From Microbacterium sp. oral taxon 186 str. F0373 (GTDB taxonomy: Bacteria; Actinomycetota; Actinomycetes; Actinomycetales; Microbacteriaceae), in the NCBI RefSeq assembly GCF_000411455.1, contig NZ_KE150458.1, positions 880,876-944,875 of the forward strand: a stretch of 64,000 nt of DNA, read 5' to 3'. The notes beneath the pieces were generated by a model. That model ran no database searches. It worked only from the letters and a program-made list of their open reading frames with translations, and was not told the DNA's origin. Shown here piece by piece: positions 52,426-56,412 of the stretch (position 1 is its first letter; each line of letters starts with the position of its first letter). Position numbers and translations under genes: made by a program.

Positions 52426-53832
52426 CTATGCCTCCGCCGTCGGCGTCGACAGCGCCTCGAGCACCTGCGGGATGATCTGGTAGACGTTGCCACACCCGAG
52501 GGTGATGACGTAATCGCCCTCCCGCGCGACGGTCGCGGTGTACTCGGCCGCCTCCTGCCAGTCCGCCACGTAGTGCACCTTGGAGGGATCGCGGAAGGCT
52601 CCGCTCACGAGCTCCCCCGTGACGCCCGGCACCGGGTCCTCGCGCGCACCGTAGACGTCGAGCATGACGGTGTGGTCAGCATAGGATTCGAGCACATCGG
52701 CGAACTCGCGGAACATCTCCTGTGTGCGCGAGTACGTGTGGGGCTGCTGGATGGCGATGAGGCGACCGTCGCCGACGACAGTGCGCGCCGCAGCCAGCGC
52801 GGCGGCCACCTCGGTCGGGTGGTGCGCGTAGTCGTCGTAGACGCTCACGCCGCGCTGGACACCGTGGAGCTCGAAGCGTCGCACCGTGCCGCCGAACCCC
52901 TCCACGGCACGCAGGGCGGGCTCGAGCGCGTATCCGAGCGTGAGCAGCACCGCCACGGCGCCCGCCGCGTTGACCGCATTGTGGGCCCCCGGTACGGCGA
53001 GGCGCCCGGTCACCGTCTCGCCGTCGTGCGTGAGCGCGAAGGAGACAGGGCCCTCGGTCACGACATCGCTCAGACAGACATCGGCCGCGGCATCCTCCCC
53101 GAACGTCACGATCCGCTCATGGCGAAGCGCCCGCGCGACCCGGCGAGCGCCGGAGTCGTCGGCGGAGATGACGACGGCCTCTCGCGCCGCGTCGCCGAAG
53201 CGGACGAAGCCGTCGTAGAAGGCGTCGCGCGACTCCCAGTGGTCGAGGTGGTCCGGATCGACGTTGGTGATCAGCGCGACAGACGTGTCGTACAGCAGGA
53301 ATGTGCCGTCGGACTCATCGGCTTCGATGACGAACAGCTCGTCGCCGCCCGTGCCGCTGGAGACGCCGAGATCGGCGATGACTCCCCCGTTCACGAACGT
53401 CGGCGCCGTGCCGAGTGCACGCAGAGCCGTCACGAGCATGCCGGTGGACGTCGTCTTACCGTGCGCACCGGCGACGCTCACGAGTCGGCGCCCTCCGATC
53501 AGCCAGTACAGCGCCTGGGAGCGATGGATGACGTGCAGGCCTCGCTCCTTCGCGAGAAGGAACTCCGGGTTCTCCGGCCAGATGGCGCCCGTATGGATCA
53601 CGGCGTCGACATCGTCGGGAAGGTTCGCCGCGTCGTGCCCGACATGCACGGTGGCGCCCCGTGCCGCGAGAGCCCGGAGGGCGGTGCTGTCGGCGCGGTC
53701 GGAGCCGGAGACCCGGATGCCGCGATCGAGGAACATGCCGGCAAGTCCCGACATGCCCGATCCACCGATCCCGATGAAGTGGGCGGCGGTGATGTCCTCG
53801 GGGATGGGCAGGCTCAGGTCGGGTCGAATCAT
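52426..53832 (-). CDS. murC: UDP-N-acetylmuramate--L-alanine ligase
   Basis: MurC adds L-Ala to UDP-MurNAc, the first step of the stem peptide. The 468-residue protein has the N-terminal nucleotide site [17 protein letters not shown], the ATP loop [24 protein letters not shown] in the central domain and [18 protein letters not shown] with [12 protein letters not shown] in the C-terminal domain. It lies between the divergent insert (53956-55226) and ftsQ. A TAGACT box lies nine bases before the ATG, so it may restart transcription after the insert. Confidence 0.97.
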
Positions 53833-53919
53833 GGCTCGTCAAGTCTAGGTCGAGGCCGCCTGAGCGGATGCTGCGGCGCGCGGCGCACGAACGGGCTTTG
53901 GTGCGACCACCACCATGCC

Positions 53920-53947
53920 TGGACACATTGATACGAATGGTGATACA
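53920..53947 (+). promoter_or_regulatory. Promoter with TGATAC direct repeats before the insert pair
   Basis: TGGACA (53920-53925) as -35 and GATACA (53942-53947) as -10 are 16 bases apart, and the -10 ends eight bases before the ATG at 53956. TGATAC occurs twice in direct repeat, at 53929-53934 and 53941-53946, a 12-base period that covers the spacer and -10. This suits control by a dimeric repressor such as the GntR protein of the same operon; that link is inference. Confidence 0.5.
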
Positions 53948-53955
53948 AAAGCGTC

Positions 53956-54861
53956 ATGACGGACATGAATCAGCTCCGCCTCGTCTTCGGGGTGGGCCTC
54001 GGCACCATCGCTGCGGGCGGCCTCCTCGCCGCTCTGCACACCTGGCGCGCGGACTCCGCGGGACAGCGCGCCCTCGCACGCTTCGCTGAGCGCTCCGGGC
54101 TGCCCGTGCCGGTGGAGTCCGCTGCCGCACTGGAGGCGTACATCCGCCGCAGCAAGCTGGTCGATTACATCGCGCTCAGCGCCGCCGGCGCTGCCGCCGG
54201 ACTCCTCCTTATGACTCCCTTAGGCCTCACCACGATCTACCTTCTCGCTGTCCTCGTCCCGGTCGTGATCGTGATCATGATCATCGCCGCGTGGTGTTCG
54301 CCACTGCACGAGCGCCCCTTCTCACCGGCGCAGCGCGCACCACGCATCGCACGATCGCGCGTCACGACCGTCGGGGACTACCTCAACCGGTTCCCGCGCT
54401 CCCTCACGTGGGTTCTGATGGGACTCGCGATCGCGAGCGGCGTGTGTGGCGGGTGGGCGCTGGCCACCGGCGGCGTCGCACGTGCTGATATGGCCGCCAT
54501 CGGGATCGTCGTCTCTGCGGTCGCCATCGTGACTGGTGTCGTCCTGCCTCACTTCGAGGCGGCGATTCTTCGTCGCCCCCAACCTGCCAGTTCCGAACTC
54601 GAGCTGGCATGGGATGACGCCCTCCGCGTCACCGCGCTCAACGCGGGCCGACAGAGCGCGGCTGCGCTCTGCATCGCGGCGGCACTGATCACCAGCGTCA
54701 CCGTCTTCACCGGCGTCGACGACGATGCGGGGTGGGCTGCAAGCGTCTTCGTGCTGATTCATATGGGTCTCACATACGTCTACCCCACTCAAGGCGCGCC
54801 CATTCCACGACGCCTCTACCCCGACGGCATCCACGTGCCCGCAGGAAGCTCCCTCGCATGA
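53956..54861 (+). CDS. Membrane protein of unknown function in the dcw cluster
   Basis: A 301-residue protein with about seven membrane helices, including one near each end (GVGLGTIAAGGLLAALHTWR; SVFVLIHMGLTYVYPTQG). Between the first two is a soluble segment with AGQRALARFAERSGLPVPVE. It shows no transporter or enzyme motif that I recognise. It reads opposite to the division genes and overlaps the GntR gene by four bases (ATGA). Membrane-protein and YtrA-type GntR pairs are common in Gram-positive bacteria and often respond to cell-envelope stress; whether this one does is not shown. Confidence 0.7.
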   Translation: MTDMNQLRLVFGVGLGTIAAGGLLAALHTWRADSAGQRALARFAERSGLPVPVESAAALEAYIRRSKLVDYIALSAAGAAAGLLLMTPLGLTTIYLLAVLVPVVIVIMIIAAWCSPLHERPFSPAQRAPRIARSRVTTVGDYLNRFPRSLTWVLMGLAIASGVCGGWALATGGVARADMAAIGIVVSAVAIVTGVVLPHFEAAILRRPQPASSELELAWDDALRVTALNAGRQSAAALCIAAALITSVTVFTGVDDDAGWAASVFVLIHMGLTYVYPTQGAPIPRRLYPDGIHVPAGSSLA

Positions 54862-55226
54862 TCGTCATCGACCCGGCATCCGCGGTGCCCCCGTTCGAGC
54901 AGCTGCGGCGCCAGCTGATCGACGACGTGTCGAGCGGCGCACTGTCCGCCGGCACCCGTCTGCCGACCGTGCGCCGGCTGGCCGAGGACCTGGGGCTTGC
55001 TCCCGGCACCGTCGCGCGCGCCTACCGCGAACTCGAGGCTGCCGGCATCATCGAGACACGCGGGCGCAACGGCACCTTCGTCGCCCCACAGGGTGACGCG
55101 GCCCTCCGAGAAGCGCAGCGCGCTGCCGCGAGCTTCGTCGACCAGGTTCGCACGCTGCGCATCGATCCCGAGCAGGCCCTCGCGCTCGTTCAGGCCGCGT
55201 TGCGCAGCGCGCCCACCGCTCCCTGA
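54858..55226 (+). CDS. GntR family transcriptional regulator (YtrA-like)
   Basis: A 122-residue regulator with an N-terminal winged helix (PPFEQLRRQLIDDVSSGALS, TRLPTVRRLAEDLGLAPGTV, GIIETRGRNGTFV) and a short C-terminal helical part, the compact YtrA subfamily without a ligand-binding domain. Such proteins usually repress the operon they sit in. The ATG overlaps the stop of the membrane gene, so it is made in step with it. It converges on murG across an 88-base gap. Confidence 0.88.
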   Translation: MIVIDPASAVPPFEQLRRQLIDDVSSGALSAGTRLPTVRRLAEDLGLAPGTVARAYRELEAAGIIETRGRNGTFVAPQGDAALREAQRAAASFVDQVRTLRIDPEQALALVQAALRSAPTAP

Positions 55227-55314
55227 GCCTCATCCGTCCCCGCTTGTCGCAGCGAGGCACGCGCAGCGACCGAACAGGACGGACGAAGCCGATCGTCGGC
55301 CCCGCCGGGCCCGC

Positions 55315-56412
55315 TCAGCCCGCGAGCGCGCGATCCAGCATCGCGATCACGGATGCCGTGCCGGCACGCGCGGCGGCGGTTCGCGCCTGCGCCGCGGCAC
55401 GCATCGCCGACAGCGCCGTGTCGTCGCGCAGCAGCGGCACGATCTGCTCACGCACACGGTCGGGGCTGAACGCGGCATCCTCGATCAGCTGTGCGGCGCC
55501 GACGGCCACGGCTCCGCGCGCGTTGAGCGCCTGCTCGCCGTTGCCGACGGCATACGGCACATACACCGCGGGGATGCCGAGAGCTGACGCCTCGCTCACG
55601 GTGGCCGCGCCCGAGCGCGAGACCACGAGATCCGCCAGCGCCAGCGCGAGGTCCATCCGATCTAAGTAGGGAACGATCCGGTAGTCGGGGTGTCCCGGGT
55701 CGACGATCGGGTCGCGCTCCCCCGCGGCATGCAGCAGCTGCCAGCCGGCGTCGATGACCGCGGGCCATGCCGCGGCGAAGGCCTCATTGAGCCGGCGCGC
55801 GCCCAGCGATCCGCCGAACACGAGAAGCACGGGCCGCGACGGGTCGAGGCCGAAGAAGCGCGCCGCCTCGTCCCGCATCGTCGCGCGATCGAGGTCGACG
55901 ATCTCGGCGCGCAACGGCATGCCGACCGTCTGGGCGCCGCGCAGCGGGGTGTCGGGGAACGCCGCTCCCACGCCGGCCGCGCGGCGGGCGCCCAAGATGT
56001 TCGCCAACCCCGGGCGCGCATTCGCCTCGTGCACGACGTACGGCACCCCCTCGCGGCGGGCGGCCACGTACGCGGGAGCCGACGCGTAGCCGCCGAACCC
56101 GGCGACCACATCGACGTGATGATCGCGGATGTGCCGTCGCACCTGCCCGACGGCACGACGCCACGCCAGCGGGAACCGCAGCGCGGAGAGGTTCGGCCGT
56201 CGCGGAAAGGGGACCTTGTCGACGATCAACAGCTCGTACCCGCGTTCGGGCACCAGACGTGCTTCGAGACCCTCGCGAGTGCCGAGGACGAGCACGGATG
56301 CCGCGGCGTCCCGCGCCCGCAACCCGTCGGCGACCGCCAGGAGCGGGTTCACATGTCCGGCGGTGCCGCCGCCGGCGAGGAGATACGTCGTCGAGGAAGC
56401 CGGGGTCGTCAC
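55315..56412 (-). CDS. murG: UDP-N-acetylglucosamine transferase MurG
   Basis: MurG adds GlcNAc to lipid I to make lipid II at the inner face of the membrane. The 365-residue protein has the N-terminal Gly loop LLAGGGTAGHVNPLLAVADG, FGGYASAPAYVAA, HEANARPGLANILGAR, and in the C-domain VFGGSLGARRLNEAF and SRSGAATVSEASALGIPAVY. It lies ten bases after ftsW in the normal order, with the divergent insert separating it from murC. Confidence 0.97.
   Translation of the reverse strand: MTTPASSTTYLLAGGGTAGHVNPLLAVADGLRARDAAASVLVLGTREGLEARLVPERGYELLIVDKVPFPRRPNLSALRFPLAWRRAVGQVRRHIRDHHVDVVAGFGGYASAPAYVAARREGVPYVVHEANARPGLANILGARRAAGVGAAFPDTPLRGAQTVGMPLRAEIVDLDRATMRDEAARFFGLDPSRPVLLVFGGSLGARRLNEAFAAAWPAVIDAGWQLLHAAGERDPIVDPGHPDYRIVPYLDRMDLALALADLVVSRSGAATVSEASALGIPAVYVPYAVGNGEQALNARGAVAVGAAQLIEDAAFSPDRVREQIVPLLRDDTALSAMRAAAQARTAAARAGTASVIAMLDRALAG

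Follow-up and report, generated by a model that had tools for sequence, protein, structure and literature searches.

Does a membrane-protein gene that lies with its regulator among the wall-synthesis genes belong to the wall pathway, or does it only reside there? The locus that raises this question is found in Microbacterium sp. oral taxon 186 str. F0373 (assembly of 3.17 Mb in 7 contigs), in a window, that is, the whole stretch of DNA analysed, of 64,000 nucleotides.

A divergent gene pair between murG and murC

The first-pass annotation of the window described a two-gene unit between murG and murC, on the opposite strand. The observation is confirmed: the open reading frames of the window include a divergent pair, memA and gntR, at this place. 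The features of the locus are as follows.

52426-53832, minus strand: murC, left flank (TIGR01082, 406 bits)
53842-53847, minus strand: TAGACT, -10 box of murC, found in most relatives whether or not they carry the insert
53920-53949, plus strand: predicted promoter and operator-like site of the pair, from sequence reading and conservation in relatives
53920-53925, plus strand: predicted -35 of memA-gntR, TGGACA
53929-53934, plus strand: TGATAC half-site, first copy, in the -35/-10 spacer; the site also has an ACACA half-site
53941-53946, plus strand: TGATAC half-site, second copy, overlapping the -10
53944-53949, plus strand: predicted -10 of memA-gntR, TACAAA
53956-54861, plus strand: memA, a 301-aa predicted 7-TM membrane protein
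54574-54627, plus strand: MemA motif RPQPA...ELAWDDALR (codons 207-224) in predicted cytoplasmic loop 5, from the alignment of MemA alleles (A1)
54858-55226, plus strand: gntR, a 122-aa YtrA-type GntR regulator (PF00392, E 8e-16)
55315-56412, minus strand: murG, right flank (TIGR01133, 239 bits, with PF03033 and PF04101)

The TIGR01133 score of MurG is slightly below the 250 cut-off, and both glycosyltransferase 28 Pfam domains are present. Translational coupling of the pair, as the annotation had proposed, is consistent with an ATGA overlap of the two genes (54858-54861). The overlap is conserved: of the 19 pair-bearing loci, 18 have one of 4 bases and the remaining locus one of 1 base. A search to E 1 found no second memA copy in the window genome.

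The pair is conserved in part of the genus. Among 149 Microbacterium genomes, 146 have a MurC match, and in 41 of these a close gntR is divergent from and adjoins murC, a count based on GntR matches down to E 2.9e-19 (none of the 24 weaker matches omitted lies near murC by its coordinates). Nineteen of the 41 carriers match the window MemA, and the other 22 have no memA match (gntR-only). A MemA profile matches 39 of 366 Microbacterium genomes, one of them (G138) with a remnant and three (G534, G526 and G498) with partial matches. The first 19 memA loci (L001-L019) all contain gntR and murC, and 17 contain murG; in the stretches examined for the later 19, gntR is found in all, murC in 17 and murG in 18, with no murC within the stretch of G475 and G559 and with G530 stopping at a contig end. 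All memA copies of the genus that were examined sit at the murG-murC site (murC outside the stretch in G475 and G559). In the wider family the window MemA is matched in 27 of 249 genomes, and in the order the MemA profile is matched in 20 of 297.

This comparison of the murG-murC interval, which the first-pass annotation had proposed and which was run mainly within the genus, rejects a curiosity of the window strain alone, since 41 of 146 genomes have gntR there. Conservation across the genus, the mark of a dcw-cluster member, is likewise not seen (gntR at the site in 41 of 146, memA in 39 of 366). That murG and murC are normally adjacent holds in 33 of the 40 non-carriers examined (of 105), which have at most 130 bp between the matches; the other 7 have 235-1015 bp with other content. 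In the neighbourhoods of 20 GntR homologues at other loci of the genus, no MemA relative was found at E 1e-4 within the 4-5.5 kb examined.

Further genes accompany the locus in some strains. In G475, G559, G498 and G555 a PadR-like frame and a large membrane-protein-like frame of 444-452 aa lie beside the module (L188 3506-5127, L189 3413-5025, L194 3195-4918 and L184 3165-4930); Pfam confirms the PadR identity for G498 and G555, and no Pfam family was found for the three large frames tested. G137, which has no gntR, encodes a partial relative of the large protein (39% over 96 residues). In the murG-murC interval of G062, G105, G094, G086, G109 and G112 (L055, L063, L056, L094, L108 and L118), the murC strand carries a small lipoprotein-like frame; these frames share a core of SCG, TEGDPI and DMTQD, and the G062 copy matches no Pfam family. 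A murC-memA-gntR region also lies on a 465-kb "plasmid" of Microbacterium sp. NIBRBAC000506063 (L227), and Microbacterium-like loci occur in records titled Stenotrophomonas maltophilia P13 (L202) and Planococcus sp. APC 4015 (L205); all three labels fit poorly.

MemA is predicted to contain seven hydrophobic helices (AF2 model with pLDDT 91.2 and pTM 0.88), and its charges suggest an outer N-terminus and an inner C-terminus. Its inner motifs are conserved across the 18 alleles of the A1 alignment, from which G037 is left out, as it is from the MemA tree (it is kept in the distance tables). Mean pairwise identity is 0.66 in predicted inner loop 5, 0.50 in loop 3, 0.32 in loop 1 and 0.40 in the C-terminal tail, as against 0.21-0.33 in the helices; the outer loops have 0.18, 0.22 and 0.43. 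The window protein matches no Pfam family above the cut-off and no NCBIfam family, and the best score among further alleles is 13.5 bits, to the PspM model with a cut-off of 80. Padloc finds nothing for MemA, and for GntR weak matches to models with an HTH-like region. Foldseek finds no match of MemA in the PDB at E 0.001. The best VIA-align match is TMEM45A (Z 7.7, rmsd 6.8, 160 residues aligned), with many rhodopsins and receptors close behind, a result that excludes no family.

GntR contains the winged HTH of its family (PF00392, 57.9 bits, cut-off 27). Its AF2 model (pLDDT 92.4) shows this domain followed by two C-terminal helices (81-99 and 104-117), the short C-terminal domain of about 50 residues that defines the YtrA subfamily, and its description as a YtrA-type regulator stands. 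Foldseek top hits include Sulfolobus YtrA (6sbs, E 9.4e-7), where whole-length superpositions of such small GntR chains give an rmsd of 12-15. Against NCBIfam NF053730, the Rv1152 family, GntR scores 123 bits, below the cut-off of 170 for membership. Of a further subfamily trait, a place in an operon with membrane or transport genes together with binding to its own promoter, the operon and a conserved operator-like site are seen here, and the binding is putative.

The promoter, the operator-like site and murC

The pair was said to have its own promoter, and a -35 and a -10 can be predicted at the same place in relatives. A generic promoter scan of 53700-55450 found no promoter, so the call rests on this conservation. 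At the position that matches the window promoter, relatives carry TTGTRTTGACACATTGATACA...GTACAAA; they share TTTGTRTTGACACATTGATACA...GTACAAA, followed by a start codon after about 6 bases, and their promoter reads as -35 TTGACA, about 17 bases and -10 TACAAA. The memA starts in relatives are our own choices, partly tblastn ends, and that of G037 falls inside the promoter. In the window, too, the start codon lies 6 bases past the -10, a spacing that points to a message that is probably leaderless.

TGATAC repeats had been placed over the -10. The second copy does overlap TACAAA, but the first lies in the spacer. With up to 1 mismatch allowed, the window contains a single TGATAC-N6-TGATAC (0.05 expected), and a longer version of the site occurs once in the window genome with up to 3 mismatches allowed. 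In relatives TTGTRT-N2-ACACAA forms a dyad, downstream of which ACACA, ATACA and GTACA are repeated. Read against these relatives, the two TGATAC copies of the window belong to the set of half-sites ACACA/ATACA/GTACA, part of a conserved operator-like site. This site (TTGTRTTGACACA plus half-sites), at which binding is predicted, covers the -35 of the promoter.

The distribution of TTGTRTTGACACA follows that of gntR. Sixteen of the 19 pair loci have it with no more than 1 mismatch, and G037, with an exact site, makes 17 (the G037 and G556 rows of the operator-mismatch table are wrong owing to the choice of memA start), and 13 of 14 further pair loci have an operator within 2 mismatches. With at most 2 mismatches it is found in 10 of the 22 gntR-only loci; the other 12 have no recognisable operator (5-7 mismatches). 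None of 40 loci without gntR has a match with up to 3 mismatches, and base-shuffled intervals give essentially none with up to 2. The window operator, with 4 mismatches and a changed left arm, is the worst of the 19. In G061 (L083) and G039 (L084) there are two exact operators each, one over the -35 and the other just before a GGAGG ribosome site, a layout that replaces the usual leaderless arrangement.

Across all 41 carrier genomes, the 18 exact operator sites all lie at the memA-gntR locus (16 genomes). Sites with one mismatch also number 18, with 7 at the locus and 11 elsewhere, where a reversed control gives 7; in 15 of the 41 carriers, the window genome included, no site lies within 1 mismatch anywhere. 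Since exact copies are found only at the module, GntR would control its own operon and little else. It most likely represses just this operon, and wall genes other than the adjoining murC are not likely to be its direct targets. A wider regulon using this operator was considered and rejected on the same count, the exact copies being confined to the module in 16 carriers.

Any read-through from murG to murC was also said to have to cross the insert. The TAGACT box attributed to murC is indeed found at 53842-53847 on the minus strand, and AGTCTA or ATCCTA (plus strand) is found no more than 30 bp from murC in 18 of 19 pair loci, 21 of 22 gntR-only loci and 33 of 40 other loci. Because the box is present in carriers and most non-carriers alike, murC probably has a promoter of its own whether or not the module is present. 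This speaks against a dependence on read-through past the insert, and the idea that the insert acts mainly by blocking read-through into murC was rejected. The operator lies mostly 58-123 bp from the murC start (160 bp in G074 and 200-223 bp in G018, G090 and G131, for sites within 3 mismatches). In 17 of 19 pair loci, 22 of 22 gntR-only loci and 27 of 40 other loci, a GGCGCGC-like block lies 30-74 bp upstream of murC, at about 53875-53881 in the window. This GC-rich block may belong to the murC promoter.

History of the module and of its memA alleles

Homologues of memA are found in Cryobacterium, Arthrobacter, Microlunatus, Actinomyces, Actinotalea, Cellulomonas, Georgenia and other genera. 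Seventy-two loci outside Microbacterium were examined, some of them overlapping and six at the mur site; in 69 of them gntR directly follows memA. Three do not follow this pattern: two are without a MemA match, and L021 stops short of the gntR that is seen in L045, which overlaps it. The sequence TTGTRTNNAYACAA is found within 2 mismatches in 23 of 58 distinct upstream regions outside the genus (0.5 expected from shuffles), among which related strains are not independent. No murC, murG, ftsW or ftsQ was found within about 1.5-3 kb on each side of the loci away from the mur site. The same pair elsewhere in Actinomycetota, away from wall genes, suggests an old module that docked at the mur site, and memA-gntR with its operator would be a self-contained unit of long standing. 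Variants with doubled memA occur: in G556 (L178 2622-4423) a single gntR is preceded by a tandem pair of divergent memA copies, and double MemA matches are also found in L021/L045, L039 and L212.

Within the genus, the pair, gntR-only and empty states are interspersed on the MurG tree (78 rows; 10/13/11 changes); G046, G131 and G011, whose stretches have no MurG or only a short one, are left out of it. The gntR distances follow the MurG distances among pair carriers (Spearman 0.70, a value reached in 0 of 500 permutations) and less closely among gntR-only carriers (0.31; 16 of 500). G138 retains a memA remnant (profile match), G062 and G010, judged by eye, keep the promoter and short memA-like ends, and G105 has a truncated gntR. 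From such traces memA appears to have been lost repeatedly, leaving gntR alone, and the history would most simply fit one old insertion followed by loss of memA and then of gntR. The dN/dS of gntR is 0.13, 0.13, 0.18, 0.18 and 0.50 among gntR-only relatives, and 0.07-0.16 in five pair-bearing comparisons. With no recognisable operator in 12 of the 22 gntR-only loci, the lone GntR may be decaying.

In strains that keep the pair, memA is the gene that changes. Thirty-one pair carriers were compared, 17 of the 19 first loci (without G046 and G011) and 14 of the later 19 (without G555, G530, G534, G526 and G498). In the 52 genome pairs with murG at least 86% identical, which are not independent of one another, memA is at most 64% identical in 45 and 70-96% identical in 7, and gntR is at least 80% identical in 51. 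Close species have murG 94-97%, gntR 91-96% and memA only 38-61% identical. In G049/G100, murG, gntR and memA are 96, 96 and 43% identical, with dS of 0.19, 0.27 and 1.06; in G101/G129 they are 94, 91 and 38% identical (dS 0.39, 0.59 and 1.07) and in the window and G441 97, 94 and 61% identical (dS 0.18, 0.35 and 0.66), where NG86 values near 1 are close to saturation. The converse is seen in G507/G441, with a memA dS of 0.03 as against 0.29 for murG and 0.18 for gntR.

DNA identity along the locus drops near the promoter or the memA start and recovers at gntR. The gntR-murG spacer is also divergent in some comparisons (26-60% in G065/G028 and G101/G129), so that the local divergence is not strictly limited to memA. 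G441 and G507 are 95-100% identical from within murC through memA into gntR, then 77-93% over the gntR end and most of murG, and back to 93-99% in ftsW, a profile such as a transferred tract would be expected to leave. The MurG tree unites G049 with G100 (support 100/98) and G101 with G129 (99/97). On the MemA tree, a quick one, AU tests reject both groupings (p 5e-40 and p 2e-5) for these strain pairs, which were chosen for looking odd. The window, G441 and G507 do group on the MemA tree (support 99), which indicates that the alleles exchanged there are related ones. Faster evolution in place was rejected as the sole cause, given that dS jumps at memA as well. The jump in both dS and dN between close species points to replacement, and memA alleles thus appear to be exchanged between close species while murG and gntR are little changed.

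Possible roles and comparison with known systems

The reading that we favour, with moderate confidence, is that of an autorepressed module inserted at the murG-murC site, with MemA under pressure from an antagonist and its alleles swapped. A unit of operator, memA and gntR would have been inserted between murG and murC in the ancestor of part of Microbacterium. A GntR dimer would sit on the TTGTRT-N2-ACACAA dyad, aided by the extra half-sites, and obstruct RNA polymerase at the promoter of its own operon. Upon its release by a membrane or envelope signal, MemA and GntR would be made together from the leaderless message, and build-up of the repressor would shut the operon again. Inner loops 3 and 5 of MemA may contact a conserved partner, with a variable membrane bundle; recombination through the conserved murC and gntR would exchange memA, and murC would run from its own promoter. 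The most likely cause of the swapping and the repeated loss, in our inference, is an antagonist from outside that changes over time and acts on MemA, such as a phage, a bacteriocin or a wall- or membrane-active compound. It is doubtful whether an antagonist-facing MemA, its alleles swapped like serotype cassettes, also signals inward through its conserved loops to the adjacent repressor, as a polymorphic sensor or target made of one protein. Against the autorepressed module stand the poor preservation of the window operator, the lack of a recognisable operator in 12 of 22 gntR-only loci, the divergence of spacers near memA, and the lack of a padloc match or confident fold for MemA.

Membrane proteins bind and retain a repressor in the SdpI/SdpR logic, and a hypervariable MemA, of sensor or immunity type, could likewise hold GntR at the membrane through its inner loops, with the signal acting on MemA. 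The nearly constant position of memA directly before gntR across genera is consistent with this, as are the identities of inner loops 3 and 5 (0.50 and 0.66, against 0.18-0.33 in the helices and two of the three outer loops) and the change of memA alleles beside a little-changed gntR, expected if contact is made by conserved loops; however, gntR survives without memA in 22 genomes and inner loop 1 is variable (0.32), and we consider such retention unlikely. The survival of gntR, mostly as an open frame, in these 22 of 41 carriers would itself be explained if GntR also tuned the adjoining murC from an operator between the divergent promoters. The gntR dN/dS below 0.2 in four of five gntR-only comparisons and the operator kept in 10 of 22 such loci agree with control of murC, but the operator lies mostly 58-123 bp off the murC start, clear of the core promoter there, and is not recognisable in the other 12 loci, which makes this role improbable in our estimation. 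We give similarly little credence to a neutral passenger, a fast-evolving gene in an insertion-tolerant spot under no special selection. Patchy presence with many losses, other small genes in the murG-murC interval and diverging spacers are what such a passenger would leave, but it would not account for the conserved operator and regulator, for the inner motifs kept in 18 aligned alleles, or for the jump of dS as well as dN at memA, which points to replaced alleles.

The wall cluster as a mark of function, suggested in the first-pass annotation, is weakened by the homologous pairs elsewhere that have no murC, murG, ftsW or ftsQ nearby. An envelope-stress module, in which wall damage releases GntR, MemA protects the envelope or adjusts wall synthesis and the location is functional, is possible but not the reading we would choose. 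It agrees with the murG-murC position of all memA loci examined in the genus, with the induction of the Bacillus subtilis ytr operon by wall antibiotics, as stated in excerpts of PMC8060467, and with the effect on vancomycin susceptibility described in part of PMC4923875 for Rv1152, whose family is the best NCBIfam match of GntR. The single fixed position, however, is equally given by one old insertion, modules elsewhere have no wall genes in the stretches examined, no exact operator lies away from the module, and 105 of 146 genomes do without a close gntR at this position, which implies that it is not needed for wall synthesis. By analogy, envelope sensing by memA-gntR is possible; most likely MemA is an autorepressed membrane protein, subject to diversifying pressure, whose operon is lodged among the wall genes and does not govern them.

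The replacement of memA between close species, with flanking genes retained, is a sign that an unstudied membrane protein is under strong pressure from outside; the protein, the operator and the strain pairs identified here can serve in the search for that pressure. A small regulatory unit among wall genes, without evident control of them, is also a caution for inferring function from neighbourhood.

The literature search found no paper joining GntR, Microbacterium, murC and murG, and none joining three of Microbacterium, the GntR family, hypervariability and dcw; in further titles and beginnings of abstracts we found nothing on a memA-gntR module. Several small GntR systems offer comparisons. 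The Corynebacterium glutamicum proteins of 2du9 and 2ek5, which we take to be CGL2947, have the same build as GntR here and are 27-29% identical to it. The M. tuberculosis Rv1152 / MSMEG_5174 family (NF053730) is the best model match of GntR, below the cut-off of 170; several targets are reported for Rv1152 in part of PMC4923875, whereas exact operators here lie only at the module. YtrA of Bacillus subtilis is, in the excerpts of PMC8060467, a regulator of the same type that acts on its own operon, ytrGABCDEF, as is predicted here, but it controls an ABC transporter, induced by wall antibiotics, in place of a single 7-TM protein. The closest well-studied precedent is YtrASa (Saci_1851) of Sulfolobus acidocaldarius, a 121-aa YtrA-subfamily GntR in an operon with the membrane protein Saci_1850. 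According to excerpts of PMC6746942, its 14-bp semi-palindromic operator has extra half-sites, and its very restricted regulon consists of its own operon, which it represses, and one other membrane-protein gene; a similarly restricted regulon is predicted here, with no such second target. The order there is regulator gene, then membrane-protein gene, with the site over the transcription start, whereas here memA precedes gntR and the site lies over the -35.
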